A DNA stretch of 31,790 nt, taken from positions 1 through 31,790 of the IMG/VR virus record IMGVR_UViG_3300047548_001664; one strand, given 5' to 3'. The DNA is from a virus. The notes beneath the pieces were generated by a model. That model made no database searches. It saw nothing but the letters and a program-made list of their open reading frames with translations, and was not told the origin of the DNA. Positions 3,351 through 31,790 of this stretch are shown piece after piece. Position 1 is the first letter of the stretch, and every line of letters starts with the position of its first letter. Made by a program: the position numbers and the translations under genes.

Positions 3351-4114
3351 TAAGTAGCCTCCTCAAGAGAGATCGTCACATCATAGAGACTAGGAGCAAC
3401 ACTTTTCCAAACTAAGTCTTTCATGTAGAAGTAACCAGAGTAGATAAACTTGCTATCTGTAATGCTCATAGAATCGTCTGGGTCTAGAAGAAACCATAAA
3501 GGAGTATTCTCACCATGTTGAACATGAATTGCATTCAATTGATCAAATTCTAGATTGTTAACCAGCTTCATTTCTCCAGAGAGAGTATCAACTGTGTTAT
3601 ATGTATCGATGAACTTCTGGCCGTATGAATTCTTTGTAACTTTATTATTGGTATTACGAGCGTAGCTGAACCCAATGCTAAGGTTGTTATCAATGATCTG
3701 AATCTTCTTCCCGATAAAGATGTTAGAAACTTCTACATACTCATTTCCAGAGAAAGTGAGCTTCCAGTACCTATTCGAAGTCGGGGAGAGTTGCTTAAAA
3801 GCAAAGTTATGAATTGAAGAAATCTCTAGGGATTCACTTGCTCCTGAGAATATAGGAGTTGCAGAGCTCTCTACAGTACAACTATTAAATCCAATTCCTT
3901 CTACCGAAGAACCTTTAATACAAATAATGTCACTCTCAGCAATAGTCTTTAGGTCAATGAGGATAGTTACTTCATCAGTTAGACTTCTGAATACTTTTGT
4001 TGTGAATGTATGTTTAATGTTGTCTAAGGGGAACTGAGCATCTTCAGAACCACTTTCTATAGTGATGTCAGCATTTACTAATTTATTATCTGAACAAAAA
4101 GTTATTTTACTCAT
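3350..4114 (-). CDS. Minor tail protein (distal-tail-like position)
   Basis: A 254-residue, beta-rich protein directly after the tape measure gene, where many siphophages place a distal tail protein. Residues about 20-140 resemble a galactose-binding or discoidin-like jelly roll (FPLDNIKHTFTTKVFRS early, then NRYWKLTFSG). The C-terminal part has the pattern LWFLLDPDDS. Its start overlaps the tape measure stop as TAATG at 4114. The domain suggestion comes from sequence pattern only; the tail role comes from order and coupling. Confidence 0.6.
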   Translation of the reverse strand: MSKITFCSDNKLVNADITIESGSEDAQFPLDNIKHTFTTKVFRSLTDEVTILIDLKTIAESDIICIKGSSVEGIGFNSCTVESSATPIFSGASESLEISSIHNFAFKQLSPTSNRYWKLTFSGNEYVEVSNIFIGKKIQIIDNNLSIGFSYARNTNNKVTKNSYGQKFIDTYNTVDTLSGEMKLVNNLEFDQLNAIHVQHGENTPLWFLLDPDDSMSITDSKFIYSGYFYMKDLVWKSVAPSLYDVTISLEEAT

Positions 4115-6348
4115 TATCTTGATCTCCCAATTTCAATTCCATTCTGAACTCCTCTAGAAACACTTCTTGCGATCTCAGAGTCGTCAGCTAATAGAACAAC
4201 TGGCCTGTTTAGAATTGCAGCTTCTAAGCTGTCTAATCTTGTAAGAAGAGCATCGTTCGCACTTCCTCCACCGTTTGCTATTCTCATGAACTCTTTTTGT
4301 TGTGAGGCATTTAAGACTGCTTCACCTGAGTTAACGTTTGCTTGTAATCTATCGCCTGCGAAACTATTTCCAGGAATGAATCCACCATCAGCAAAGTTAC
4401 CTACGCCAGCTATTCTTGCTGCTTGAGCTGCCATTGCCGCAGCTGCGATACCACCTAATACAGCTCCTAATACTGGACCACCTGTTCTAGTACCAAACGC
4501 GAATGAGCTTGCTACTGCTTCAGGAGTTTTAATTGCTAGTTGAGTAAGAGCTGCTGCTTTACCGATTGCGGCCGCTGCTTTGTTACCTGATTGTTGGAGA
4601 GTAATTGCAGTAGAGAAGAACATCTCTCTATCTTTTAGCTCATCAGCTTGAATCGCTTTAGATTGAGAAGCTGTTAACTTCATAGTGTCGAGTTTCTGCT
4701 TATTAGAAAGATTAAGTCTTGCTAGCTCAGCTTTATTTGCTGCTTCTTCAATAGCTTTCTTACGTTCTATAGAGTCAGTAGTAAGTTTAGCTTTCTGCAT
4801 TTCTGCATCGATCTGTAGTTGAAGCTTAGCCTGTTCAAATTCTTGTCTTCTTAGTAGGTCTTCTTGTTGCTTAACGATCTGAGTTTCTAGGTTCAGAGTA
4901 TCGTTAGCTGTATGAAATTCATTCTCAGCTACTATTGCTTCTTGTTCAGCAAGGAGCATCTCGCCGTTATGGATTCTTTTATTCTCTAGGATGATTGCAT
5001 TAGCTGCTTTCTCGGCCGCTATCTTCTCTGCAAGAGCAGCTGCTTTTTTAGCTGCCAATTCTTCGGCAGCCTTCGCTTCAGCATCTAAAGCCGCTTGATC
5101 TACTATTGGCTGTTGCTTCTGATTAATCTTCTCCTTAACTTTATCAATGGACTGACCAATAGATTCTAGGGAAGAAGTAATCATGCTTGTATCCATTCCA
5201 AACAACTTATTAAACATTGCTTCTAATGGCTGAATCGTTTGAAGGATTACTTGAACACCTGTAAGGAAAGCTAACTTAACTTCATCCCAATACTTAATGA
5301 GAGCAAATACTGCTGCACCAACTGCAACGATGGCAGCGATTGTTAATGTAATAGGAGAGGTAAGAATGGCGATTGCGGTTGCAAGTCCAGTTGTCGCTAT
5401 AGTCGCTAGATTGGTTACTAGAAGATATGCACCATAGGCAGCAGTTAAAATACCTATCGTTTGAATAGCTATCTTAATGTTGTCCATGTTCTTAACGATG
5501 GCATCAGTGAACTCAATCAGGGCAAGGGCGATACTCTTAAACATAGGAAGAACTGTCTTTCCTAATTCACCTGAGAGATTAAAGAAGTTGTCTGAGAGAG
5601 AAGATAGAACACCTTGGAGAGTCTGAGATTGTTTAATCATCCCACCTGCATAAACTCCACCTTCAGCTTGAATCTTGACCATAGTTTCTCTGAATAAATC
5701 AAAAGAAACCTTTCCATCAGTAACAGCTTTACGAACATCCTTTAAAGGAATTCCTAATTTATTTGCTAGTGTTGGACCTAAGTTAACTCCAGCATCATTT
5801 AATTGATTAAGTCTTTCTAGGGAGAGTTTAGTCTCTGCTTGAACCTGACCAAAGATTCTTGCTAGATCAGATAATGGCTTACCAGAACCAGCAGCAATGT
5901 TACCTAAGACTTCTAGTACTTCAGGAATTTCAGCAGCAGTTGTACCAAAACCAAGGAGAAGTTTATTAGCTTCTACGATTCCTGGTAATTGAAAGGGAGA
6001 TGTAGCTGCGAACGCTTGTAGCTTCTTTAACTGAGCTTCACCAGCTTCAGCACTACCTAGCATTACTCCAAGCTCTACGGACATCATCTCAAGCTCACCA
6101 GCATTCTTTACAGCCTGAACTCCAAGATTACCTATAGAAGAAGCAAGGTCTTTAATACCAGTTAATGCAAGCTCAACACCTTTCGCACCTAAGCTGCCTA
6201 CAAAGGAGTTCCATGCTTGAGTGTTACCTCCGGTATTCTTTTTAAAATCTGCACTGAATTCTTTAACAGAAGCGTTCGCTTGATCTAAGGACTGTTGAAA
6301 TCCCTTGACTGCAATTTCTAAATCAAAGTTTACTGTATTGGCTGACAT
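4114..6348 (-). CDS. Tail tape measure protein
   Basis: 744 residues, the second longest gene here. It sets tail length and is threaded through the tail tube during assembly. The N-terminal 280 residues carry the typical tape measure pattern (AGELEMMSVELGVMLGS, then FAATSPFQLPGIVEANKLL). A long hydrophobic block follows at about 293-353, then an Ala/Glu/Lys-rich coiled coil at about 413-566. An Ala/Gly-rich zone (about 580-650) precedes a common terminal pattern, GGFIPGNSFAGDRLQANVNS, with GEAVLNASQQ after it. At roughly 1.5 angstrom per residue it predicts a tail of about 110 nm. It follows the frameshifted chaperone pair, the standard siphophage order. Confidence 0.92.
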   Translation of the reverse strand: MSANTVNFDLEIAVKGFQQSLDQANASVKEFSADFKKNTGGNTQAWNSFVGSLGAKGVELALTGIKDLASSIGNLGVQAVKNAGELEMMSVELGVMLGSAEAGEAQLKKLQAFAATSPFQLPGIVEANKLLLGFGTTAAEIPEVLEVLGNIAAGSGKPLSDLARIFGQVQAETKLSLERLNQLNDAGVNLGPTLANKLGIPLKDVRKAVTDGKVSFDLFRETMVKIQAEGGVYAGGMIKQSQTLQGVLSSLSDNFFNLSGELGKTVLPMFKSIALALIEFTDAIVKNMDNIKIAIQTIGILTAAYGAYLLVTNLATIATTGLATAIAILTSPITLTIAAIVAVGAAVFALIKYWDEVKLAFLTGVQVILQTIQPLEAMFNKLFGMDTSMITSSLESIGQSIDKVKEKINQKQQPIVDQAALDAEAKAAEELAAKKAAALAEKIAAEKAANAIILENKRIHNGEMLLAEQEAIVAENEFHTANDTLNLETQIVKQQEDLLRRQEFEQAKLQLQIDAEMQKAKLTTDSIERKKAIEEAANKAELARLNLSNKQKLDTMKLTASQSKAIQADELKDREMFFSTAITLQQSGNKAAAAIGKAAALTQLAIKTPEAVASSFAFGTRTGGPVLGAVLGGIAAAAMAAQAARIAGVGNFADGGFIPGNSFAGDRLQANVNSGEAVLNASQQKEFMRIANGGGSANDALLTRLDSLEAAILNRPVVLLADDSEIARSVSRGVQNGIEIGRSR

Positions 6349-7305: not shown

Positions 7306-7313
7306 CTTATTAA
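7306..7313 (-). promoter_or_regulatory. TTAATAAG late-promoter-like element upstream of tail chaperone
   Basis: Exact TTAATAAG on the minus strand, 37 nt upstream of ATG 7268, in the gap after the HNH gene. It would drive the chaperone, tape measure and minor tail genes. Confidence 0.5.
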
Positions 7314-9168: not shown

Positions 9169-9618
9169 TTACTCGTCCTTGCTAGGTAAGCGGTTGATCT
9201 TGTTATATGAAATCTCTATTTTGAGTTCTTCTTTTTCAGCCTCAGGTTTGAGTGCATTTGGGTAGTAAACATCTAGTTGGGTTTTAGTTTTTTGATAGAT
9301 TTCGAACCACTTTGCGCGCAAGTTTCCGTCACTTTCTGCAAGATAGTTGGCATAAGCTTCATCTATGTCTGCTTGAAGTGCAGCGATTCGCTTGTTTCTG
9401 ATTGTCTTAATTTTTTCTGAGTTATTTTCTTCTAACTCTTCAGCAGCTAGTAAGTACCATTTGTAAGCTTGGACCTGAGTAATGTTGTAAGTAGACATGA
9501 GACTTTTAACAGTTTCATTCTTTGTCTTGTTCTTAGCTATTAGAGATAGGCAATGAGAAACGTACTGAGCTTTGTTAGCTTTTCCTGCTCGTTCATTGAT
9601 TGATTTTTCTTCTGACAT
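9169..9618 (-). CDS. terS: Terminase small subunit-like protein
   Basis: 149 residues, immediately upstream of terL. Small subunits recognise the packaging site on DNA. Residues about 35-65 (KNETVKSLMSTYNITQVQAY) fit a helix-turn-helix, followed by a long charged helical region (about 65-120) likely to form the oligomerisation domain. The start ATG 9618 is preceded by AGGGG. A TTAATAAG element lies 56 nt upstream inside the end of the previous gene. The assignment rests on order, size and HTH pattern rather than a signature motif. Confidence 0.75.
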   Translation of the reverse strand: MSEEKSINERAGKANKAQYVSHCLSLIAKNKTKNETVKSLMSTYNITQVQAYKWYLLAAEELEENNSEKIKTIRNKRIAALQADIDEAYANYLAESDGNLRAKWFEIYQKTKTQLDVYYPNALKPEAEKEELKIEISYNKINRLPSKDE

Positions 9619-9664
9619 TATTGGCCCCTATAACACTGTTATAAAAAGTATGGAGTAACTACTC

Positions 9665-10039
9665 CTAGGGTCTTCTTATTAATTTCTTCTTGGGCTTAGA
9701 TTCTTTAATTGGAACTATGTTTGGGATAGGTGGTTGTCTTGAGTAGTACTCAGCGATTCGCTTTGTTACTTCTTTTTTAGATAGTGTGACTTTCTTAGCT
9801 TTAACTCTTTTATCGATCCTTCCACAGATGTCTTTATTGCAAGTTACACAAAGAAGTCCTCTTATGGTCATTGCTTCGTGGTCATGGTCTACGGCGAGTC
9901 TTGTCTTACATTCTGATTGATGAACTCCACAAATTGCACATCTATAGTCTTGAGCTTCTAGTAAGGAATCGTATTCCTCTAAGGAGATGTTGTAGGTCTT
10001 CTTTAAGTGTCTTGCCCTAGCTTTTTCTTTCGTCGTCAT
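9665..10039 (-). CDS. Recombination endonuclease VII-like protein
   Basis: 124 residues matching the T4 endonuclease VII (gp49) family. The pattern is YNISLEEYDSLLEAQDYRCA with CxxC at 34/37, then LAVDHDHEAMTIRGLLCVTC with the catalytic DHDH at 51-54 and the second CxxC at 64/67, followed by an Asn (68). Enzymes of this family resolve branched DNA before packaging, which fits its place just upstream of terminase. The C-terminus is a Lys/Arg-rich tail. The ATG at 10039 has no ribosome site; a TTAATAAG element ends only 7 nt before it, so the message may be leaderless. Confidence 0.88.
   Translation of the reverse strand: MTTKEKARARHLKKTYNISLEEYDSLLEAQDYRCAICGVHQSECKTRLAVDHDHEAMTIRGLLCVTCNKDICGRIDKRVKAKKVTLSKKEVTKRIAEYYSRQPPIPNIVPIKESKPKKKLIRRP
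9675..9682 (-). promoter_or_regulatory. TTAATAAG late-promoter-like element upstream of terS
   Basis: Exact match on the minus strand, inside the last codons of the endonuclease VII gene, 56 nt upstream of the terS ATG. No -35-like hexamer is seen at the expected distance. Confidence 0.45.
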
Positions 10040-10046
10040 GAAGGAA

Positions 10047-10054
10047 CTTATTAA
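10047..10054 (-). promoter_or_regulatory. TTAATAAG late-promoter-like element, leftward
   Basis: Exact match on the minus strand only 7 nt before the endonuclease VII ATG. It forms a divergent pair with the plus-strand copy at 10067-10074, 12 bp away, at the point where the leftward and rightward late units separate. Confidence 0.5.
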
Positions 10055-10066
10055 ATCCTCTTCCAG

Positions 10067-10074
10067 TTAATAAG
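10067..10074 (+). promoter_or_regulatory. TTAATAAG late-promoter-like element, rightward
   Basis: Exact match in the context CCAGTTAATAAGTA, 57 nt upstream of the portal ATG. The same 12-base context (CAGTTAATAAGTA) recurs before the scaffold gene at 12603-12610. Confidence 0.55.
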
Positions 10075-10131
10075 TAGAAGTTGATGGTCGTACCGTCGCA
10101 CCCCATAACGTACAGCTTGGAGCTTCAATAA

Positions 10132-11604
10132 ATGTCTACTTCTAAACCTCTCAATACTCTTGTTCCTGAATTATTAAGCTACATACAAGTGATGTATCAG
10201 AACCAGGTTATCTATAGCCGAAAGTTGATGGACATCTATCAAGGGAACTTACTTAAGTATGTTGAGGAGAGTTTGGCTTTAGAGTTAAACCCTAGAGCTC
10301 TTGCTAGAAGTAAAGGAAGAATCCCACCTATCAATGTTTTGAATAAAGTTATTGGTAAGCTGAGTAAGGTCTATATTGAACCAGCTATTAGAGATGCAGG
10401 TGATAACTCTATAGATCAGGAGTTGCTTGCTTATTATGAAGATAAGCTAGATGTGAATAATCAACTGGCTACAGCTAATGAGCTTTTAAACTTACATAAG
10501 TATTTTGCTATTGAACCCTATATTAATAATGGTGTTCCTAGTATGAGAGTTCTTCCTGCTGATAAGTTCTTGGTGTGGAGTGATAATAGTTTTGACCCTA
10601 CAGCTATGACTGTCTTTATTAAGTTCATGGGAAGTATTACGAAAGTGGTTCCTACTACTGATAAGAATGGAGTTGTAATTAAGAATGCTGAGAATGTAGT
10701 TAGGGAAGTGGCCTTGTATCATGTTTACTCAGATGAGAGTTTTATGATTATGGATGCTGATGGAGTTGTCTCAGAGTATAGAGATAATCCTTATGGGAAG
10801 ATTCCTTTTGTCTATTGCTCAAGTTCTTCTTTTGAACTTATTCCTACTCCAGATGCAGACAATCTTGCAATGGCCGTACTTATTCCTAAGCTTTTAACTG
10901 ACATAAATTATGCTACTCAGTTTCAATCTCACTCTATCGTTTACGGTATAGACATTGAGACTTCTAACCTTGACAACAATCCAGATGCGTTCTGGGTAAT
11001 CAATAGTGTTGAAGGTGAAGGCAAGAAACCTATGATTGGGACTATTAAGCCTGAAGTAGACATTGATAAGGTTATTACTTTAATCAGCACAGAGATGAGC
11101 ATGTGGCTTGACTCTAAAGGGATTAAGGTTGGTTCAATTGGCCAAGCTAATGTTGATAATGCAGCTTCTGGTATTGCTAAGCTTATTGATGAAGGTGATG
11201 CAAGCTCTATAGGAAGAAAGCAAGTTAACCTTTTTAGAAAGTATGAAAGTGATCTGTGGAATCTAATAGTTAGAATGCACGGTTACTGGGCAAGCTCACA
11301 ACAACTCGTAGATGTTAAGCAAGATTTTAGCTTAGGTTTTAAACCTGCTGTAACTTTTGCTGAGAATAAGATCGTTGTTGATACTAAAACTACTCTTGAA
11401 GAGTTAAAGATTATGTTTGATCTTGGTCTTATTACTCCTAAGCAAGCTCTCTTTAAACTTAACCCTGACTTTACAGACGACCAGATTGAACAGCTTCTTG
11501 CTGAGATTAAAGTAGTGAAGGATGAAGTTAAGTCAATAGAGTTCTCTCAAGTTGAAGATTTAGCAAATAAAGGTGAAGAACCTAATTCAGCTATCGGAGA
11601 GTAA
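10132..11604 (+). CDS. Portal protein
   Basis: 490 residues, the first gene of the rightward head unit. Portal proteins form the dodecameric DNA channel at the capsid vertex. The N-terminal pattern (helical, with a GRIPPINVLNKVIGKLSKVY segment at about 62-81) and the middle beta region VPSMRVLPADKFLVWSDNS followed by YGKIPFVYCSSS fit SPP1-type portals. The C-terminus has helical stretches and an acidic end. Start ATG 10132 has TTGGAG nine bases upstream. The next gene starts directly after the stop. Unlike most siphophages, it is on the strand opposite to terminase. Confidence 0.85.
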   Translation: MSTSKPLNTLVPELLSYIQVMYQNQVIYSRKLMDIYQGNLLKYVEESLALELNPRALARSKGRIPPINVLNKVIGKLSKVYIEPAIRDAGDNSIDQELLAYYEDKLDVNNQLATANELLNLHKYFAIEPYINNGVPSMRVLPADKFLVWSDNSFDPTAMTVFIKFMGSITKVVPTTDKNGVVIKNAENVVREVALYHVYSDESFMIMDADGVVSEYRDNPYGKIPFVYCSSSSFELIPTPDADNLAMAVLIPKLLTDINYATQFQSHSIVYGIDIETSNLDNNPDAFWVINSVEGEGKKPMIGTIKPEVDIDKVITLISTEMSMWLDSKGIKVGSIGQANVDNAASGIAKLIDEGDASSIGRKQVNLFRKYESDLWNLIVRMHGYWASSQQLVDVKQDFSLGFKPAVTFAENKIVVDTKTTLEELKIMFDLGLITPKQALFKLNPDFTDDQIEQLLAEIKVVKDEVKSIEFSQVEDLANKGEEPNSAIGE

Positions 11605-12602: not shown

Positions 12603-12610
12603 TTAATAAG
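12603..12610 (+). promoter_or_regulatory. TTAATAAG late-promoter-like element upstream of scaffold
   Basis: Exact match in the context CCAGTTAATAAGTAAC, 60 nt upstream of the scaffold ATG in a clear intergenic gap. It shares 12-13 bases with the portal copy at 10067. Confidence 0.55.
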
Positions 12611-12670
12611 TAACTCTTGAAGCGAAATGTTTTCGTTTCTTTTTTAATGGTAGTTACCAAGGAAGGTCTT

Positions 12671-15057: not shown

Positions 15058-15065
15058 TTAATAAG
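15058..15065 (+). promoter_or_regulatory. TTAATAAG late-promoter-like element upstream of tail terminator gene
   Basis: Exact match, 17 nt before ATG 15083, immediately followed by the GGAGGAG ribosome site. It would drive the tail terminator and tail tube genes. Confidence 0.45.
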
Positions 15066-15082
15066 CTTATATGGAGGAGCAC

Positions 15083-15526
15083 ATGGTTACGACTATCAGA
15101 GATAACATTGCAGTCAGACTGTTGGCAGTCCTTGGATCAGAGTTTTCGAAGCTGAGTTATATGAGCGATGTCTCCCAGAATAAGTTTGGAAGAGCAAATA
15201 AGAGATTTGGAGTTATTCCTAAGTCAGCATTAGCTACTTCAGGAGTAAATGGGTTGGACACTTTAGATCATTCCTTTGAAGTCATTCTTACAGATGGTTA
15301 TCTAAGTGGAGCTTTAGCTCAAATTAATGATGAGTTAAAGACTGAGAGGATTGGAGAGTTACAAGATAGAGCACTTCTAATCTATAAAGATTTGCAAGTG
15401 AATAAAGGCTTTCTTGATAGCAAGGTCCTAATAGTGAATGGACTGAGCATGAGTGAGATTGAATACCTTGATGAAGAAAAGGTAGCGATCTTGAGATTTG
15501 AAATAAATATAAAATACAAAACGTAA
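15083..15526 (+). CDS. Tail terminator-like protein
   Basis: 147 residues. I choose ATG 15083 (MVTTIRDNIAVRLL) because GGAGGAG lies directly upstream; an in-frame ATG 12 nt earlier would overlap that site. The N-terminal helix, the strand RFGVIPKSALATSGVNGLDT and the DHSFEVILTDGYLS segment fit the small alpha/beta fold of gpU-like tail terminators that cap the tail and join it to the head. A helix (LKTERIGELQDRALLIYKDL) and a final strand pair complete it. The gene precedes the tail tube gene as in many siphophages. Confidence 0.65.
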   Translation: MVTTIRDNIAVRLLAVLGSEFSKLSYMSDVSQNKFGRANKRFGVIPKSALATSGVNGLDTLDHSFEVILTDGYLSGALAQINDELKTERIGELQDRALLIYKDLQVNKGFLDSKVLIVNGLSMSEIEYLDEEKVAILRFEINIKYKT

Positions 15527-16941: not shown

Positions 16942-17475
16942 TTATTTATTTTTGTTGAGTCTTTTTTGACGATCTAGTTCTTTTTTAACTAGCTGGGAAA
17001 GATGAATTACTCTTGATGAGAAGGTTCTTAAAATAACTTCTGCATTACTGAAATCATTTCCTAATTCATCAGTACACTCTTGAATTAATTTGGAGAGTAG
17101 GTTTTCAGGAGTTGACGTTGCCAGGTCGTCTTCGATTGAACTCTTTTCTTCTTCGATTAAATAATCTAGGCACTCATCTAAAGGAACCATGTTATTAGAG
17201 CATCCTGCAATGCCAGTAATGTCTCTATTCTGTGCATTCATGGCCAGGTACATCTCTTGCTTAATACTTTTATTATCGCCTTCAGGAGTTTCATAGCTGT
17301 CTTGAAATGCTTGTCTATGAAGTGAGTTCTCTTTAGTGTGTCCACCACAATAATACTCATCAACAAACTTCCTCATAAATTCCTGCTCGTCTTCAGATAA
17401 TGTTTTCACATAATCCATGTCTGCAAACTTTTGGACGTTTCGTCTTAGCTTGTTGCTTGGATTACTTTTTTTCAA
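16942..17475 (-). CDS. Unknown protein, paralogue of the 21215-21577 product
   Basis: About 177 residues if it starts at TTG 17475 (MKKSNPSNKLRRNV); the next in-frame ATG falls inside the conserved part. It shares with the 21215-21577 product the ordered elements RRNVQKF / HRKHVKDF, then DMDYVKTLSEDE / DQDYIDQLSEDE, then EYY, and QNRDITGIAGC / RNRDLYGIKNC. I do not recognise the family. The C-terminal 80 residues are acidic, then basic helical, and unique to this copy. The gene overlaps the end of the upstream gene at a run of seven A residues, so the start mechanism is unclear. Confidence 0.6.
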   Translation of the reverse strand: MKKSNPSNKLRRNVQKFADMDYVKTLSEDEQEFMRKFVDEYYCGGHTKENSLHRQAFQDSYETPEGDNKSIKQEMYLAMNAQNRDITGIAGCSNNMVPLDECLDYLIEEEKSSIEDDLATSTPENLLSKLIQECTDELGNDFSNAEVILRTFSSRVIHLSQLVKKELDRQKRLNKNK

Positions 17476-17656
17476 TCTTAACCAGCTTTGACTTACTAGG
17501 AGCTGGATCATTAACAAAGTAACGAATTACCTTAATAAATCCTTCTGCCGTTCTGTACTCTAGTGGGTAAGACTGGATGTATTCATATCCAGCTAACTTC
17601 TTTTCTACTTCGTTTGGAGCTGTCTCTATTGGTAGCTCAATGATCTTAATACTCAT
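17462..17656 (-). CDS. Small hypothetical protein
   Basis: 64 residues from ATG 17656 (MSIKIIELPIETAPNEVEKK), with GAGGG upstream. It has an alternating strand/helix pattern, contains LAGYEYIQSYPLEYRTAEGF and FIKVIRYFVNDPAP, and ends ...LVKIEKK. It resembles small phage proteins with a short antiparallel sheet (DUF4177-like 'YEYI...I..F'), but I cannot be sure. It is divergent from the endolysin gene and shares with it a 90-bp control region with dyads. Its last codons contain a seven-A run. Confidence 0.55.
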   Translation of the reverse strand: MSIKIIELPIETAPNEVEKKLAGYEYIQSYPLEYRTAEGFIKVIRYFVNDPAPSKSKLVKIEKK

Positions 17657-17674: not shown

Positions 17675-17725
17675 ACTGCTAAAAATCACAATTAATAAGT
17701 TTTATTAGCAGTAAGTATTTTACTG
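17675..17725. promoter_or_regulatory. Divergent control region with two dyads and a late-promoter-like element
   Basis: ACTGCTAA at 17675-17682 and TTAGCAGT at 17705-17712 form a perfect 8-bp inverted repeat that brackets TTAATAAG (17692-17699, plus strand; 46 nt before ATG 17746). A second dyad, CAGTAA-GTATT-TTACTG (17709-17725), overlaps its right arm. On the minus strand the same tract reads CTAATAAAAC, so it may fire both ways. This looks like an operator wrapped around a promoter for the lysis and sigma cluster. Confidence 0.5.
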
Positions 17726-19067: not shown

Positions 19068-19997
19068 ATGAATGAATATATGAAACAAGTGACTGCCATC
19101 CCCATGATAGATCATGCCGAAGAGATTAGGCTTGCAGCTCTTATAGCAGCAGGTGACGTTAAAGCTAAAGAAAAATTAATAGAAGCTAATCTTAGACTTG
19201 TTGTTTCTATTGCTCATTCTTATAAGAAATCTTGTATTGAATTTGCCGACTTAGTTCAAGAAGGAAATATGGGACTAATGCGCGCTGCTGAGAAGTTTGA
19301 CCCCTTAAAGGGGTGCAAGTTTTCAACTTATGCAACTCCATGGATAAAGCAATTCATTCAACGTTTTCTAGCAAATCATAGTCGGACAATAAGAGTTCCT
19401 GTTGGTGTTTATGAAGACTTGCTAAGATTTTCTAGGGAAATAAAATCATTTAGCCTTAGATTTGATAGAGATCCAACTTTTCACGAAATGTGCGACATCA
19501 TGGGCGTGTCTGAAAAAAAGATGAGAACTATTCTTGAAGCCAAAGAGCAGTATACTATCTCTATAAATGTTCCACTGGGTTCTGACTCTGATTCTGGTAC
19601 AGTTGAAGATTACATAGGGCATAGTAATTCTCCTGAAGATATATTAATAGCGCATGAAGAATACGGTGAAAGAGAAAGTGGACCCAACTCAGTATCATTT
19701 TCTAAGCAATCTAAGATTTGTGCTCTTTCCACGGAGGAAATTAGGGCTAGAACTAATGCTTATCATAGAGAGTATAGAAAGCTTAATCCGTACTATGTCC
19801 GCGTTACTCCTAAACCTTCTAAAACTCCAGTAACGGCAAAGGTCACGTCTAAGTATTGCAACAGATGCTCTGTTACCAAGGAAGCCAGTGAGTTCTATGG
19901 GAGCAAAAGTAGTAAGACAGGATTGCATGCATTTTGTAAGGATTGTAGTAAGCAAATAGCTCAAGACCGTCGTGATGGAATTTTGTCAAATAATTAA
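19068..19997 (+). CDS. Phage sigma factor lacking region 4, with C-terminal zinc ribbon
   Basis: 309 residues. Region 2 is clear at about 40-112 (NLRLVVSIAHSY, DLVQEGNMGLMRAAEKFDP, FSTYATPWIKQFIQRFLANH, SRTIRVP) and is close to the RpoD/RpoS class. Region 3 follows at about 113-195 (FDRDPTFHEMCDIMGVSEKK; PLGSDSDSGTVEDYIGHSN). After SPEDILIAHEEYG (residue 200) no region 4 helix-turn-helix appears. Instead there is a linker with EIRARTNAYHREYRKLNP, a pattern of HNH-associated proteins, and a Cys4 zinc ribbon (264, 267, 290, 293). The frame is intact, so this is a fusion rather than a visible frameshift. Such a protein should still melt -10 DNA but not read a -35. T4 gp55 is the known precedent for a region-4-less sigma. 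Confidence 0.85.
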   Translation: MNEYMKQVTAIPMIDHAEEIRLAALIAAGDVKAKEKLIEANLRLVVSIAHSYKKSCIEFADLVQEGNMGLMRAAEKFDPLKGCKFSTYATPWIKQFIQRFLANHSRTIRVPVGVYEDLLRFSREIKSFSLRFDRDPTFHEMCDIMGVSEKKMRTILEAKEQYTISINVPLGSDSDSGTVEDYIGHSNSPEDILIAHEEYGERESGPNSVSFSKQSKICALSTEEIRARTNAYHREYRKLNPYYVRVTPKPSKTPVTAKVTSKYCNRCSVTKEASEFYGSKSSKTGLHAFCKDCSKQIAQDRRDGILSNN

Positions 19998-21214: not shown

Positions 21215-21577
21215 TTATACCTTCCTTGGTTTTGACTTTTTGAGTAAGTGATCTAGTAACTCAATTAAAGTGTCCTCAGTGTTATCCTTCCCAACTTCAG
21301 TGACATCGTTTTCACTATCAATCATTCCAACACAGTTTTTAATTCCATAGAGATCACGATTTCTAGAGTTCTTTGCAGCGTAAACAGCTCTCTTAAGCTC
21401 TAAGGAGTTATGAAGATGTATTTGCCCTTTAGGAAAGAAGCTCTTGTAGTATTCATTATTAAATAAGCTTAGCCATGTTTTCTCGTCTTCGGAGAGTTGA
21501 TCAATATAGTCCTGGTCAACAAAGTCCTTAACGTGTTTTCTGTGGGTAGATTTTTTAAGGCCAAGGTGATTATTCAT
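21215..21577 (-). CDS. Unknown protein, paralogue of the 16942-17475 product
   Basis: 120 residues from ATG 21577 (MNNHLGLKKSTHRKHV), with GGGAG upstream and an 8-nt overlap with the preceding gene (ATGAATAA). Conserved with its paralogue: DFVDQDYIDQLSEDE, FNNEYY, a His-rich stretch (KGQIHLHNS), and NSRNRDLYGIKNC. The pattern of Tyr, His, Arg-Asp and Cys suggests a compact conserved domain, but I recognise no family. It lies between the winged-helix gene and the Lys-rich repeat gene in the minus cluster. Confidence 0.65.
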   Translation of the reverse strand: MNNHLGLKKSTHRKHVKDFVDQDYIDQLSEDEKTWLSLFNNEYYKSFFPKGQIHLHNSLELKRAVYAAKNSRNRDLYGIKNCVGMIDSENDVTEVGKDNTEDTLIELLDHLLKKSKPRKV

Positions 21578-22082
21578 CTTTAGCTCCCAAAGTTTCAACT
21601 TGTCTTTGAGAGTCTTTATCAAATTTTGTCCCAGTAACTTTAATCTTTCCTTCATCAAGTAAAGGCTTAACACTTCCACAGACAGTAGAAATTCTAAGGC
21701 CAGTTCTGTTTGCTATTTCACTACGGCTTAAAGGAAGGTCAGATTGCTTAAGTGTACTTAGGATTTTGTTGGCTACTTCTTGCTTAGTTCTCTTGGTCTT
21801 CATAAGAGAAAGGCTTCTAGATGTAGGAGTAGAGGCTTCTGGATCACTTAGAATTAGATCGACTTCAGTATCAAATCTAAATGAAGCTACTTTCCAGTGA
21901 ATGTGCTTAAGTGCATCTAATGCTTTGGTCGTAGCAATCAAGACACGACTCTCAGCTTCGTTAATAATGTCAGCTAAGCGTTTCTCAAGAATGTCTAGAT
22001 AGATAGGTGAGGTAGCATCTAAGCTTCTCATTAGAGAGTTAATTAAAGTTTGTTCTTGTGGTGTGAATTCTGGTCCCTTCAT
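21570..22082 (-). CDS. Winged-helix DNA-binding protein
   Basis: 170 residues. The N-terminal part is helical (EQTLINSLMRSLDATSPIYL) with possible dimerisation helices. Residues about 100-160 form a winged helix: VANKILSTLKQSD, LPLSRSEIANRTGLRISTVC as the helix-turn-helix, GSVKPLLDEGKIKVTGTKF as last helix and wing. It may be a regulator of the lysis-lysogeny or early region. Its ribosome site AGGAG (minus strand, near 22090-22096) is locked in a hairpin, so translation may be controlled. The stop overlaps the next start. Confidence 0.7.
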   Translation of the reverse strand: MKGPEFTPQEQTLINSLMRSLDATSPIYLDILEKRLADIINEAESRVLIATTKALDALKHIHWKVASFRFDTEVDLILSDPEASTPTSRSLSLMKTKRTKQEVANKILSTLKQSDLPLSRSEIANRTGLRISTVCGSVKPLLDEGKIKVTGTKFDKDSQRQVETLGAKDE

Positions 22083-23081: not shown

Positions 23082-23158
23082 CGGACCATAGCTCAGCTGG
23101 ATAGAGTAGCGCGCTTCGAACGCGTTGGTCGGGAGTTCGAATCTCTCTGGTCCGGCCA
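23082..23158 (+). tRNA. tRNA-Arg (anticodon UCG)
   Basis: Complete 77-nt cloverleaf. The acceptor stem is CGGACCA/TGGTCCG (7 bp), discriminator G, and encoded CCA at 23156-23158. D stem GCTC/GAGT, anticodon stem GCGCG/CGCGT with loop CTTCGAA (anticodon TCG), variable loop TGGTC, T stem GGGAG/CTCTC with loop TTCGAAT. It lies 70 bp before the integrase start, so it is probably the attachment site as well as, or instead of, a working phage tRNA. Usually attP carries only the 3' part of a tRNA; a full copy is less common. Confidence 0.9.
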
Positions 23159-23201
23159 TATTTTCCTGCTTCTGCCATCAACATAAAAGCTTTAACTTTT
23201 C

Positions 23202-23224
23202 GTGCTCCTCACACCGAGGAGGAC
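23202..23224 (+). promoter_or_regulatory. Hairpin that masks the integrase ribosome site
   Basis: GTGCTCCTC (23202-23210) pairs with GAGGAGGAC (23216-23224) with one mismatch and a 5-nt ACACC loop. The whole GGAGG ribosome site is in the 3' arm, four bases before ATG 23228. Confidence 0.6.
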
Positions 23225-23227
23225 AGT

Positions 23228-24397
23228 ATGGGAAAGGTTTCAATCAAGTCTACTAACAAGTGGACTATCACACAAGAAAATGGACAGTATTCAATCAGAA
23301 GATGGGTTCTTTATTCTGACGACTCAAGAAAGTTAGAAAGGCTTCCTATTGAGCAGTATCGTAAATTCAGAGACGATATGACTAAGCTAACTGACCTTTG
23401 TACTAGATTAAATTACAGAGAAATTGAAGAAGAGAATGCAAAGAAAGCCTGGAAGGTAAGGTCAGCTTTTGTTGATAATAAACTTCTCTACGAAGGCTTC
23501 AAAAAGTACATGATCTCAAGAGCTGATGATGAAAAGTACGCGGGAAAATGCGCGGGGAATGTTAAGAAATGGTTCTTAGACTATTGGTACAAGCAGAAGA
23601 AATTTGACTATCTTCACTGGCATAAACCAGCTTCTCAATCTGAATTAGCTGATTGGTGGTTAAGTGAGCATGATGGAGAGTTAATCAGTTTTAAAACTAT
23701 TAAAACAAGCATTCATAATCTAAATCACTTCTTTAAATTTCTTCATCAAGAAAGTGAAGGAGAGATACCTGAACTAAAATTTACATTTCCTACTCTCACA
23801 ACTTCTAGAATTAAGAAGCATGAATGGAGTAGAAAGAAATCTCTAGGTTCAAAAGCAGAGAGAAGGTCTGGTCAATACATCAGCAATGACGAATTCAAAA
23901 TGATAATAAAGAATGCTCCCCGAGAGATTAAGTCATGTATTTACTTATCATACTATTTTGGTCTGAGAAGAAGTGAATGCTTGGCTATCACTAAGGATAA
24001 TTTGAGAAAAGGGTATTTGTATTTAGAAAAACAATTAAAGTCTTACGATGGTACTAAAGCTGAATACGGACCTTTGAAGTCTAGAGATGCTAGAAAGGTT
24101 CCTCACTGGCATAAACACTCAATGGAATCAATTCTGAATGCCATTGAAGAAGTTGAACTAATGCACCCATCAACTCTTACAGAACGATGGATAACTCTAA
24201 TGGCCGAGTTAAATCTAAATTACACATTCCACTCATTAAGAAATACATTCATCTCAAATGCGTTTAGAGACGGAAGAAATGCAAGTGACATTCAATTGGC
24301 TGCTGGACACTCTGATCTAAGAACTACAATGGGCTATCAGAGAGACTATCGTGAGATGGATGATGAAGTCTGGACTCCTTCTAAAAGAGCATCATGA
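23228..24397 (+). CDS. int: Tyrosine-family integrase
   Basis: 389 residues. The catalytic domain has Arg 247 (YYFGLRRSE), a likely Lys near 284 (PLKSRDAR), His 335 and Arg 338 (TFHSLRNTF), His 361 (AAGHSDLRTTMGY) and nucleophile Tyr 370. The N-terminal 200 residues hold an arm-binding part (KWTITQENGQYSIRRW) and a core-binding SAM-like helical domain. It would recombine attP with a host site, probably the tRNA-Arg copy next to it. The ribosome site is inside a strong hairpin. The stop overlaps the start of the BrnT-like gene by four bases (ATGA). Confidence 0.93.
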   Translation: MGKVSIKSTNKWTITQENGQYSIRRWVLYSDDSRKLERLPIEQYRKFRDDMTKLTDLCTRLNYREIEEENAKKAWKVRSAFVDNKLLYEGFKKYMISRADDEKYAGKCAGNVKKWFLDYWYKQKKFDYLHWHKPASQSELADWWLSEHDGELISFKTIKTSIHNLNHFFKFLHQESEGEIPELKFTFPTLTTSRIKKHEWSRKKSLGSKAERRSGQYISNDEFKMIIKNAPREIKSCIYLSYYFGLRRSECLAITKDNLRKGYLYLEKQLKSYDGTKAEYGPLKSRDARKVPHWHKHSMESILNAIEEVELMHPSTLTERWITLMAELNLNYTFHSLRNTFISNAFRDGRNASDIQLAAGHSDLRTTMGYQRDYREMDDEVWTPSKRAS

Positions 24398-27018: not shown

Positions 27019-27118
27019 ATGCTTCTCTGGCATCTGTTACGAATTATATATGCCTGGGAAGCATCTTATATATGCTTGGGAAGCATCTATATTGCCATTA
27101 TATATGCCTGGGAAGCAT
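27019..27118. repeat. Four 15-bp palindromic repeats (iteron-like)
   Basis: ATGCYTGGGAAGCAT at 27050-27064, 27072-27086 and 27104-27118, plus a diverged copy keeping ATGC...GCAT at 27019-27033. Each is preceded by TATAT. The second exact form, ATGCTT-GGG-AAGCAT, is a perfect inverted repeat. Start-to-start spacings are 31, 22 and 32 bp, close to 3, 2 and 3 helical turns, so all would face one side of the DNA. Confidence 0.75.
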
Positions 27119-27344: not shown

Positions 27345-27392
27345 TTGGATTTATCTGTGAAAGCAATAATCCAAAAGAGAAAGGAGAACCTT

Positions 27393-28253
27393 ATGTCTAA
27401 AATTAACACTCACACTGATCAAATTTTATTGAAGGCCATGAAGCTGCTTACTCCTCATGAGTTTGTTGTCTTTACAGCTTGGTATACTGATAAGCTTTCA
27501 TGGAATGCTCCTCAATCTGAGATAGTTGAAAGAACCAAGTTTAGCCAAACTGATGTAAGCAAAAGGTTTAAAGGCATTATTGGAAAGGGGATTCTTGAAG
27601 TCTCTAGTAAGGCAGGAAGATCAATTGACTACAGAATGAAAGATTCATTCCTAGAAAGCATTTTAAATGAACAGCCATTACCCACACTAGGACCTGTCGA
27701 AGAATCAATCCTAGACAATCCTGACAACAATTCAAAGGAAACCAATATGACAAATGAAGACAAAATCTACTTAACGATTAAAAATGAAAATAAAGATGTG
27801 TGGCTTAGCCAAGATTTTCCTGGAGAGTTAATAAGTGCACTTGTTGGAGCAAATACAAGTGAAGAGATAGTTGAAGCTTATGGAAAACGCTATCTAAAAG
27901 AAGCATCAACCTTTATCAACTCCTTAAAAAAGCCAAGTGCTCAAAGAGAAAGCTGGATTCTTAATTTAAAAGATTCTTTTGATAAAGCACTTGTAGAGTT
28001 TTTCCCACCACCTGAAGTTGTTAAGGCAGTTTCTCAAGCTGATAAAGACAACACTGAACCTACAACTCCTGGCCAGTATGGAATGATGTCAGCCAAAGAA
28101 TATAAGTTGCAAAGAGCTCATGCAGATAGTTTTCCAGAACTTGATTGGACTAAAATTCATCGTGAAGTACTTACAGAAGAAGAAGTAAAAGAACTAGAAG
28201 TAGCTTTAAGACCTAAACATGATAGTGACTTCGATTGTGAAGTTGATTTATAA
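27393..28253 (+). CDS. Winged-helix protein, probable replication initiator or regulator
   Basis: 286 residues from ATG 27393 (MSKINTHTDQILLKAMKLLT), with AAGGAG six bases upstream; an upstream TTG lies in the same frame but without a ribosome site. Residues 10-80 form a winged helix: HEFVVFTAWYTDKLSW, QSEIVERTKFSQTDVSKRFK as helix-turn-helix, and GKGILEVSSKAGRSIDYRM as last helix and wing. A low-complexity linker rich in Asn, Asp and Glu follows (about 92-125), then a helical C-terminal domain ending in acidic residues. This two-domain form resembles phage O-like and DnaD-like replication proteins. The iteron-like repeats just upstream support an initiator role, but this is inference. Confidence 0.6.
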   Translation: MSKINTHTDQILLKAMKLLTPHEFVVFTAWYTDKLSWNAPQSEIVERTKFSQTDVSKRFKGIIGKGILEVSSKAGRSIDYRMKDSFLESILNEQPLPTLGPVEESILDNPDNNSKETNMTNEDKIYLTIKNENKDVWLSQDFPGELISALVGANTSEEIVEAYGKRYLKEASTFINSLKKPSAQRESWILNLKDSFDKALVEFFPPPEVVKAVSQADKDNTEPTTPGQYGMMSAKEYKLQRAHADSFPELDWTKIHREVLTEEEVKELEVALRPKHDSDFDCEVDL

Positions 28254-29282: not shown

Positions 29283-30140
29283 TTAAATTGGAGCTGATCC
29301 AGGACTTCCACCGTTAGAAGTAACGAATAGAAAAGTTAATCTTCCATATCCACCAGCTCCACCAGCAGCTCCATTCCAAGAAATACCACCGGCCGAAGCT
29401 GTTCCGTTTGTGCCGTTAGTGTAACCACCTCCGCCACCTCCACCACCAGAAGAAGCATCGTAAGGAGAGTTTCCTGTTCCTCCGTTTCCTCCGTTAGAGT
29501 GAACACTCGCTCCACCGCCAGCTGCTCCGTTAGCTCCTGATCCAATAGAACCTCCAGTTGCTCCAGGTTCAGCAAGAATTGCAGATACAGAACCGCCAGA
29601 TTGAGGTGCAACAGGAATGTTTCCTTGTCCACCGTTACCTCCGCTAGCTCCATTTCTTGAACCAGTTAAAGAAACTTTTGCAGGTTGATTATTATTTATT
29701 CCTCCACCTGCTCCTCCAGCTTTCGCCGTAGAATCACTTCCGCCAGCTCCACCAGAACCACCGTTAGCGGCAATAATAATTCCACTACCGTCAGTAATAG
29801 AAGTATTGCCACCACCAGAACCTGCATTTGCTAATGGACCGTGAATTCCAGAACTATCAGCTCCGCCGTTTCCACCTGCACCAACAATCATTGTATAAAC
29901 TGTGCCAGGAACTACTGTTACGTTTGCTTTGAAGTAAGCTCCACCGCCTCCACCAGAACCTCCAGAAGTTCTATATGACCCAGAACCGCCGCCGCCACCA
30001 GCACCCCACATTTGAATTGTGATTTGATATGAAGCTCCAGTATTAAGAGCATTAGGTGCAGTCCAGGAATAAGTCCCAGGTGTCGTAATTGTATAGTTAA
30101 CTTCTTGAGCAGCTTTCTGTGGAAGATATAAGTTCGACAT
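29283..30140 (-). CDS. Glycine-rich tail fibre / adhesin tip protein
   Basis: 285 residues from ATG 30140 (MSNLYLPQKAAQEVNYT), with GGAG upstream and a one-base overlap with the preceding stop (TAATG). After a short beta start (TTPGTYSWTAPNALNTGASY, then QITIQMWGAGGGGG) nearly the whole protein consists of Gly-rich runs separated by short strands such as VVPGTVYTMIVGAGGNGG and IIIAANGGSGG. It ends with GGYGRLTFLF. Glycine-rich adhesins of this sort, for example in T4-like phages, form polyglycine II bundles with variable loops that touch the receptor. Its runs of GGN codons make local base composition differ from neighbours. Confidence 0.8.
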   Translation of the reverse strand: MSNLYLPQKAAQEVNYTITTPGTYSWTAPNALNTGASYQITIQMWGAGGGGGSGSYRTSGGSGGGGGAYFKANVTVVPGTVYTMIVGAGGNGGADSSGIHGPLANAGSGGGNTSITDGSGIIIAANGGSGGAGGSDSTAKAGGAGGGINNNQPAKVSLTGSRNGASGGNGGQGNIPVAPQSGGSVSAILAEPGATGGSIGSGANGAAGGGASVHSNGGNGGTGNSPYDASSGGGGGGGGYTNGTNGTASAGGISWNGAAGGAGGYGRLTFLFVTSNGGSPGSAPI

Positions 30141-30676
30141 TATGATAAGTCTCCGTAGCAAAGAATTTGAAATGAACCTTGTGAGTCTTTCTTAGAAGTC
30201 ACACTTACTCTCAATAGTTCATCTTGAAGTAGGATTTCTCCACCTGTATTGAATGAAACAAGATTAGATTCTTCTCCTGCCAAATAATGACCATCGCCAA
30301 TAGTAGGCTGAGACACTAAAACACTGGCCCAAGTAGCTCCACCGTTTGTACTTTTTTGTAAGTCGATAGAGAGTGAACCTGCTGAAGAGGAAGTCGTAGG
30401 AGTTGAAGAAGAGTTAAGAATAGCAATTTTAACTTCTGTAATAATTAAATCTTGAGGAGCTCTGTAAGTGCTAATGCCTGTTAATTCAGCAGCAGTATAG
30501 TTAGAGATGAATCCCATTACTTCAAAGTTAAAGATAGTAACCTTGTTAACCCCTTGCTCAACAGCATTAAGCCTTGTCTCGTGGTCATCTAGGTTATCCT
30601 TTACGCGAATGAAGAGGCGTTTCTTGATCGCTTCTCCAACGGTTAACCAGCTATCGGGAATAGTTATGAAAGCCAT
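30140..30676 (-). CDS. Tail fibre or tip-associated protein
   Basis: 178 residues from ATG 30676, with AGGAG upstream. The N-terminal 45 residues (FITIPDSWLTVGEAIKKRLF, LDDHETRLNAVEQGVNK) form a short attachment helix of the sort found at the base of fibres. The remainder is a beta-sandwich (VKIAILNSSSTPTTSSSAGS; LSIDLQKSTNGGATWASV; LLRVSVTSKKDSQGSFQILC). It sits between the tip protein and the glycine-rich fibre gene. A TTAATAAG element lies 22 nt upstream. I infer that it connects the fibre or decorates the tip. Confidence 0.65.
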   Translation of the reverse strand: MAFITIPDSWLTVGEAIKKRLFIRVKDNLDDHETRLNAVEQGVNKVTIFNFEVMGFISNYTAAELTGISTYRAPQDLIITEVKIAILNSSSTPTTSSSAGSLSIDLQKSTNGGATWASVLVSQPTIGDGHYLAGEESNLVSFNTGGEILLQDELLRVSVTSKKDSQGSFQILCYGDLS

Positions 30677-30694: not shown

Positions 30695-31790
30695 TTAACT
30701 TATTAAATTAGTGCCAGCAGTGTTCTCGTCGTCGTCCACAATCCCGTTGTCTTCTGAGATGTAGGATTGATTGACTCTTTCTGCTATTGTTGAAGTAGAG
30801 TAGGAAGGAGAGTCATCTTCACTGATTCTTGCCCCTCTACTGAATAAAGAACCTAAATCTAGGACCTCAAGATCAACATTCTCTCCGTTATTACTAATCG
30901 CCGAGATTACTCCCAGTCTAAGAGTGTTATCAGTTGAACCATAGGCATTATAAAGATCAGCTAAATTAAGAATGACTCTTTCACCTATCTGGAACTTGCT
31001 TAAAATGACACTTCCCTTGATTTTTATAAGAGAAGTAGAGAGATCGTTAATGAATTGATCTCTTTCTGTAATCTCAATGGCATCAGATTCATTGTAGAAA
31101 TAAATCTCATTCTCAGAAGTGTTTGTACTTTGAGTGTAGTTCTGTGCAAAAGGAGATGTGAAAGTGTGTTGCTTGTTGTTTTCATCTTCAAGCTTAGGAT
31201 CATAATCAATATGTCTATAGTTACTAACAACACTGGCCGATAGATCGAAAGCATCATCATTAACAGTATAAGACAGGATGTCTGAGTCAGTTATATGGCG
31301 AATTTCTTCACCCACATGAGCATCAAGAATGTCATACCCTAAATCTAAAGCATTCGTTATGTGCAAACTTCCTAAAGTACTTTGGTTCAGAATGTTAATT
31401 ACATCTTTAGCTGCTGGGAGAGTTGTGCTTCTAAAGTCTAGTGGGAGAGTAAGAGAGAGAAGGTAAGGAGACCTTTCTTTAGATGCTTCAAAAGATGCAA
31501 CATCAATTCTATCTTCAAGGCCAACTTGCTTTAGGATGTCAGCTACAGCTTCAGGTGCAGTTTCTATGAACTCACCAGTTACTTCGCCGTTCTTTGTCTT
31601 TCCATAGCAGTTAATATAGACAGGAGTATCGTCTTGAATGTACTCCACGTTCTTGTAGTGCATATTTTCTAGTTGAGAAGTTCCTGTATATGGAGTTCTA
31701 AGAACAATACATTTCTCTTCAACTGATAAAACTTCTAAATAGCGACTACTATCCTGATCTATCGACTTAATAAAATCTCTTGTATTAAGA
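30695..31790 (-). CDS. Tail tip / baseplate hub-like protein, C-terminal part (continued from base 1)
   Basis: The frame is open from 31790 (reading ...LNTRDFIKSIDQDSSRYLEV) to the stop at 30695, without a start at its upper end, so the first Met in the window (31663) is internal. It joins in frame to the 1-1889 segment. This half contains VADILKQVGLEDRIDVASFE, SPYLLSLTLPLDFRSTTLPA and ERVILNLADLYNAYG, an alpha/beta region of the kind seen in tip and hub proteins. It ends in an acidic Ser/Asp-rich tail (ISEDDSPSYSTSTIAERVNQ). Treat the two entries as one gene. Confidence 0.75.
   Translation of the reverse strand, partial: LNTRDFIKSIDQDSSRYLEVLSVEEKCIVLRTPYTGTSQLENMHYKNVEYIQDDTPVYINCYGKTKNGEVTGEFIETAPEAVADILKQVGLEDRIDVASFEASKERSPYLLSLTLPLDFRSTTLPAAKDVINILNQSTLGSLHITNALDLGYDILDAHVGEEIRHITDSDILSYTVNDDAFDLSASVVSNYRHIDYDPKLEDENNKQHTFTSPFAQNYTQSTNTSENEIYFYNESDAIEITERDQFINDLSTSLIKIKGSVILSKFQIGERVILNLADLYNAYGSTDNTLRLGVISAISNNGENVDLEVLDLGSLFSRGARISEDDSPSYSTSTIAERVNQSYISEDNGIVDDDENTAGTNLIS
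30699..30706 (-). promoter_or_regulatory. TTAATAAG late-promoter-like element upstream of the fibre unit
   Basis: Exact match on the minus strand in the last codons of the tip gene, 22 nt before ATG 30676. It would give the fibre genes a separate late transcript. Confidence 0.45.

Follow-up and report, generated by a model that had tools for sequence, protein, structure and literature searches.

TTAATAAG, a conserved oriented word, as the probable recognition element of a single-element -10-type promoter in a clade of uncultivated tailed phages

The middle and late promoters of phage phiEco32 carry the sequence tAATGTAtA and are read by the host RNA polymerase together with the phage sigma factor phi32_gp36; in the passages cited, the promoter is a single element of 8-9 bp that has no -35, is located before middle and late genes alike, and is followed by a start 6-8 bp downstream (PMC8948821, PMC4331800). 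The sigma factor itself has no region 4, which has been argued in print to suit a promoter without a -35 (PMC8948821). Late promoters of T4, which involve gp55, gp33, and gp45, are described in the text cited as single, -10-type, phage-specific elements of late structural genes (PMC2988020). A further variation is offered by phage 7-11, whose late promoters are bipartite and are served by SaPh711_gp47, a sigma factor with region 4, and whose phage-specific promoters, according to the same passages, lie at much the same places as in a relative despite a different motif (PMC8948821).

Here we describe the word TTAATAAG in the window, i.e. the whole 31,790-base stretch of viral DNA analyzed (IMGVR_UViG_3300047548_001664, referred to as G000 when compared with relatives). 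It is quite likely that TTAATAAG is the recognition element of a single-element -10-type promoter in a clade of uncultivated tailed phages, and this estimate covers the explanation as a whole, including the word, the polymerase and its factor, the start site, the hairpin, and the operons driven. As in phiEco32, there appears to be one element and no -35. The start is predicted 8-9 nt past the word, compared with 6-8 bp in phiEco32. The word itself is different, as TTAATAAG replaces tAATGTAtA, and unlike phiEco32 most carriers of TTAATAAG have no detectable sigma factor, while two have stem-loops anchored at the predicted start. T4 late promoters resemble TTAATAAG as single, -10-type, phage-specific elements at structural genes, but their consensus is TATAAATA, and TTAATAAG is found before replication genes too. 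An earlier note on this DNA had named T4 as the known example of a -10-only class, which is apt for the architecture, phiEco32 being the closer case; a PHROGs scan of 30 window proteins gave no match to gp55, gp33, or the sliding clamp gp45. As with phage 7-11, relatives carry other words at equivalent genes, although the element here is single. Because the word differs and only candidate readers can be named, TTAATAAG is not filed under the phiEco32 or the T4 type; we rate the putative promoter as a variant of the known single-element -10-type architecture. None of the matches listed in a full-text literature search for TTAATAAG concerned a phage promoter, which is no proof of its being unpublished.

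The window is classed as linear in IMG/VR. However, it is probably a complete circular phage genome of 31.8 kb, because a 994-residue ORF crosses both ends of the record (1-1889 plus 30695-31790) and is matched end to end, at 41%, by a 969-residue protein of the relative G009. PHROGs matches were obtained for the tape measure, TerL, Endo VII, scaffold, major head protein, endolysin, phosphoesterase, sigma factor, integrase, and fibre genes. Among the gene labels in the earlier note, those of fibre, Endo VII, scaffold, and endolysin are backed by these matches, whereas those of portal, terS, tail chaperone, and tail terminator have no PHROGs match and are names by position only.

Exact TTAATAAG occurs 11 times in the window, compared with a mean of 2.75 in shuffled sequence, and none of 100 shuffles reached 11; the copies and coordinates listed in the earlier note are all correct. 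Nine of the copies are in the sense direction at 7-60 nt 5' of start codons, as that note had claimed, with gaps of 7, 17, 19, 22, 37, 46, 56, 57, and 60 nt to starts that were chosen by the analyst. On the minus strand, the word precedes the fibre gene 1912-2859 (2879-2886, where it overlaps the stop codon of the gene upstream), the 6834 gene (7306-7313), the putative terS gene 9169-9618 (9675-9682, inside the end of ORF 9665-10039), the Endo VII gene 9665-10039 (10047-10054), and the gene 30140-30676 (30699-30706). On the plus strand, it precedes the putative portal gene 10132-11604 (10067-10074), the scaffold gene (12603-12610), the gene 15071-15526 (15058-15065), and an operon of endolysin, a 69-aa ORF, phosphoesterase, and sigma factor (17692-17699). 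The other two copies were placed in coding sequence by the note and do lie there, inside the tape-measure ORF 4114-6348 (5206-5213, minus strand) and ORF 27345-28253 (27828-27835, plus strand), and we judge them to be chance copies.

The zone within 70 nt 5' of starts comprises 4.8% of strand-positions and holds nine of the 11 copies (binomial p 7.4e-11). The earlier note had proposed a motif search upstream of genes against shuffled controls; using a gene list curated by the analyst, TTAATAAG was found in 9 of 44 upstream sequences, while 2000 dinucleotide shuffles averaged 0.27 and never exceeded 3. No other 8-mer in the window has as many sense-upstream copies, and among 280 words of the same letters the runners-up have only 5 (a word overlapping TTAATAAG) and 3. 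The word is not palindromic and its orientation is always that of the gene. The sole intergenic space between two divergent genes holds a divergent pair, with 10047 on the minus strand as the left arm and 10067 on the plus strand as the right arm, and divergent pairs were also identified in G001 (18405 minus/18418 plus) and G009 (12581 minus/12614 plus). At the left arm, the gap to the start is 7 nt, and the Endo VII mRNA would be leaderless if the start codon is right.

The relatives G001, G002, and G003 were obtained from scans of viral contigs, and a tail-protein search of viral contigs gave 79 loci, including the G009 group. Identity of TerL to that of the window is 75% in G001, 63% in G002, and 51% in G003 by tblastn; in G009 it is 49%. 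When genome contigs were examined, a portal alignment found no relative, and a TerL alignment found two contigs, one at 49% that belongs to an Akkermansiaceae MAG and another at 28%. Exact TTAATAAG occurs 11, 13, 11, and 12 times in G000, G001, G002, and G009, respectively, and the word read backwards, as a control, 0, 1, 1, and 3 times. Elsewhere, exact copies number 3 in G003, 0 in G004, 2 in G005, 0 in G006, and 1 in L016, and enrichment of the exact word is absent in G003, G006, and L016. In a scan of 60 contigs from which words resembling ribosome-binding sites were excluded, the 8-mer most enriched upstream of genes was TTAATAAG or an overlapping frame of it in seven, namely G000, G001, G002, and four pieces of the G009 group; controls with windows shifted by 250 or 400 nt gave 0 of 180 trials at p<1e-4.

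Conservation in related phages had been proposed as a check in the earlier note, and we compared up to four genomes (G000, G001, G002, and G009) at 16 orthologous genes, scoring the word within 100 nt of the start. The exact word is kept at the portal, scaffold, and 6834 genes in 4/4 genomes each and at the fibre gene in 3/3. It is present at the terS and 15071 genes in 2/4 (at terS it lies farther upstream in G002 and G009) and at three genes in 1/4; seven of the 16 genes, MCP and TerL among them, have no TTAATAAG in any of the four genomes. Each of 299 control words was present in three genomes at one gene at most. Between orthologous sites (28 pairs), identity of the 25-nt flanks is 32% upstream and 33% downstream, compared with 30% and 33% for 136 non-orthologous pairs, indicating that TTAATAAG is kept while its surroundings are replaced. 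Word, orientation, position, and flanking pattern are read from the genomes themselves. It might be argued that such a word is a chance product, or a by-product of A+T-rich DNA and of TAA stops at gene junctions, and the overlap with an upstream stop codon at 2879 would fit. The positional p value of 7.4e-11, the empty shifted-window controls, and the ortholog conservation contradict this explanation, the probability of which we consider close to negligible.

The absence of a shared -35, as stated in the earlier note, was borne out. Among 40 positions 5' of the word at 38 sites of the four genomes, only position -6, which is mostly A, carries more than 0.25 bit (0.30), and no sigma-70 pair (TTGACA and TATAAT, 16-18 nt apart) overlaps the upstream copies. 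The four genomes have 47 exact copies, of which 37 were used to analyze the start site; the other 10 lie within coding sequence or far from any start, or have no start assigned to them. None of the 37 sites has a gap of less than 7 nt between word and start codon. Interference from ribosome-binding sites is lowest where the start codon is 30 nt or more away, and at the 24 sites of this kind G occupies 2 of 96 cells at 4-7 nt past the word, and a purine is present in 21, 20, 19, and 18 of 24 at the 9th to 12th nt. A G-poor gap and then a run of purines resembles a stretch that melts, with a start at a purine behind it.

We also identified a stem-loop of 5-9 bp, with its outer pair 8-10 nt past the word, in 7 of the 9 long leaders of G000 and G001. 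Shuffles gave a mean of 0.27 (0 of 500 reached 7), and background upstream regions show such a structure at about 4%. A long leader is defined by a gap of at least 44 nt, a cut-off that was set after folds had been seen, and the mean folding z-score in those earlier folds was only -0.8 (n=15). In the window, the stem-loops are located at 9652-9665 (minus strand), 10082-10098, 12619-12639, and 17709-17725 (plus strand), beginning 10, 8, 9, and 10 nt past the elements at 9675, 10067, 12603, and 17692, respectively. The seven long leaders of G002 and G009 have no anchored stem-loop, nor do any of 20 upstream words with one mismatch in G000 and G001. Two of the anchored stem-loops, including that at 12619, have terminator-like scores; a terminator-like structure right behind a promoter would be odd and counts against the promoter reading. 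Since the stem sequences vary between sites while the pairing is retained, an RNA structure fits better than a protein operator.

A stem-loop at a fixed distance past the word would also be expected if transcripts were cut shortly past UUAAUAAG, leaving the structure at the 5' end. However, the genes diverge at 10047/10067, where no upstream gene supplies a transcript to be processed, and the same layout is present in G001 and G009, so that RNA processing appears highly improbable. Only slightly less remote is the notion that TTAATAAG is not the -10 itself but a site at promoters to which an activator or repressor of the phage binds. Winged-helix proteins (21570-22082 and its counterparts) are encoded in all four genomes and could supply such a regulator, but the word is non-palindromic and always gene-oriented, no other shared -10 or -35 accompanies it, and its spacing to the predicted start is fixed.

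The promoter reading remains the one that we prefer, and from the pattern of bases we infer promoter activity, a start site 8-9 nt past TTAATAAG that is placed by two sequence signals, and a role for the hairpin. In the proposed mechanism, the host RNA polymerase, with a promoter-specificity factor other than the primary sigma, would recognize TTAATAAG; the G-poor stretch directly past the word would open, and transcription would begin at a purine about 8-9 nt past the G of TTAATAAG. In G000 and G001, the RNA of long leaders would begin with the stem-loop, which probably shields the 5' end. The claim of a -10-only promoter is thus supported, from the genomes, as a directional, conserved, -35-less element at structural, packaging, and lysis genes that is suitably spaced to the predicted start. 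This would be a promoter class deduced solely from uncultivated phage genomes, with a predicted start anchored by two separate sequence signals.

The part of the earlier note that is not supported in its present wording is the statement that the word marks the late genes. In G002 (7939, minus strand) and G009 (10946, minus strand), TTAATAAG is found before a small ORF and, after it, genes for a DUF5906 primase/helicase-like protein and for a primase-like one, and the window copy at 17692 heads an operon that includes the sigma factor in addition to endolysin and phosphoesterase. Because the word precedes replication and sigma-factor operons, 'phage promoter' is a safer term than 'late promoter'. 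We propose that operons for structure, packaging, and lysis are transcribed from TTAATAAG, as is the replication operon of some members; MCP and TerL, having no copy of their own, would need read-through.

Most likely, the word is read by the RNA polymerase of the host after a phage-specific factor has redirected it. Among the window proteins is one of the sigma-70 family (19068-19997, plus strand) that is close to SigA/RpoS/RpoD and has regions 1.2, 2, and 3; region 4 is over the cut-off nowhere in the window. The C-terminus of this protein is Endo VII/HNH-like, as though its end had given way to a homing-type gene. It is conceivable that this factor reads TTAATAAG as phi32_gp36 does its promoter in phiEco32, with relatives obtaining the same specificity elsewhere. 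The lack of region 4 suits a promoter that has no -35, the region 2.4 stretch of the window's protein (PWIKQFIQRFLANH) differs from its aligned counterpart in SigA (WWIRQAITRAIADQ), and the operon of this protein is itself headed by TTAATAAG. Against this, the exact word persists in relatives without Sigma70_r2, a domain that was matched in none of 39 related virus records, with G001, G002, and the G009 group among those covered (a divergent factor could escape and the records may be incomplete), and a sigma scan of viral contigs found no relative of the protein. We therefore consider this explanation unlikely, and the window's sigma factor as a reader common to all carriers is ruled out by the same 39 records. 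As the same word occurs with and without a recognizable sigma factor, something else must be able to read TTAATAAG. The word thus separates promoter from reader in a manner that is directly testable.

A T7-like promoter was considered and set aside as improbable. A TATAG-like sequence is located past the word, but by eye its distance varies from about 14 to 18 nt and no polymerase-sized ORF is free in the window; the window ORFs above 400 aa are the tape measure, TerL, the putative portal, and the ORF across the ends. A search with PF00940 for a single-subunit RNA polymerase found nothing in 8 records, and the control genomes were equally blank.

A host alternative sigma factor alone could also read TTAATAAG, the phages merely tapping a host regulon. 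No common phage sigma factor is visible and the members could share a host group; however, the other words at equivalent genes of relatives would demand a different host sigma factor each time, and we regard this explanation as rather unlikely. More specifically, TTAACGAG-like words in L026 and TTAATATGAT in L016, both read by eye, are repeated upstream of genes, and L047 has four near-identical copies of TTACATATACTATAAAAAGAAA (698, 1614, 5307, and 6691), each before an ORF (p 3e-5). Among these words, only that of L047 stands out statistically, and it looks like another phage-specific promoter. That the word changes in more distant relatives hints at a phage-encoded factor evolving together with it, and differing words at equivalent genes across the wider family may serve as a natural series for the study of change in promoter specificity.

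A protein family common to G000, G001, G002, and G009 (16942-17517, minus strand, in the window) was matched in the viral-contig scan only in G001, G009, and G002. Because the phages with TTAATAAG are also close kin, this family is only a lead, and its structure model is of low confidence (mean pLDDT 61.7, pTM 0.36) and too weak to use. A second window copy of the family is located at 21215-21679. Tentatively, it is possible that the reader is a new phage specificity factor without a recognizable sigma-70 domain, perhaps this family, with TTAATAAG, TTAACGAG, TTAATATGAT, and TTACATATAC as co-evolving words and with long messages that carry stem-loops in G000 and G001.

Other features of the genome were observed as well. 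At 23082-24397, a complete tRNA-Arg (TCG) gene is located directly before the integrase gene, and this locus is a likely attachment site. In a tRNA-based host search of 288 genomes from the phylum of the MAG behind L016, the best match was 83% over 60 nt. Three 22-nt direct repeats (ATTATATATGCCTGGGAAGCAT, 91-100% alike) at 27043-27118, before ORF 27345-28253, are iteron-like and represent a candidate replication origin. Finally, the heptamer GGAGAGT has 36 copies (784, 1498, 1759, 2630, 3100, and so on to 31444), and the octamer GGAGAGTT has 18 compared with 1.47 expected. The strand skew of these words is weak in G001 (1 vs 5) and absent in G002 and G009. In the window, all copies of both words are on the plus strand, those of GGAGAGT genome-wide and irrespective of gene direction, and GGAGAGT behaves like a polarized signal of the Chi or KOPS type.
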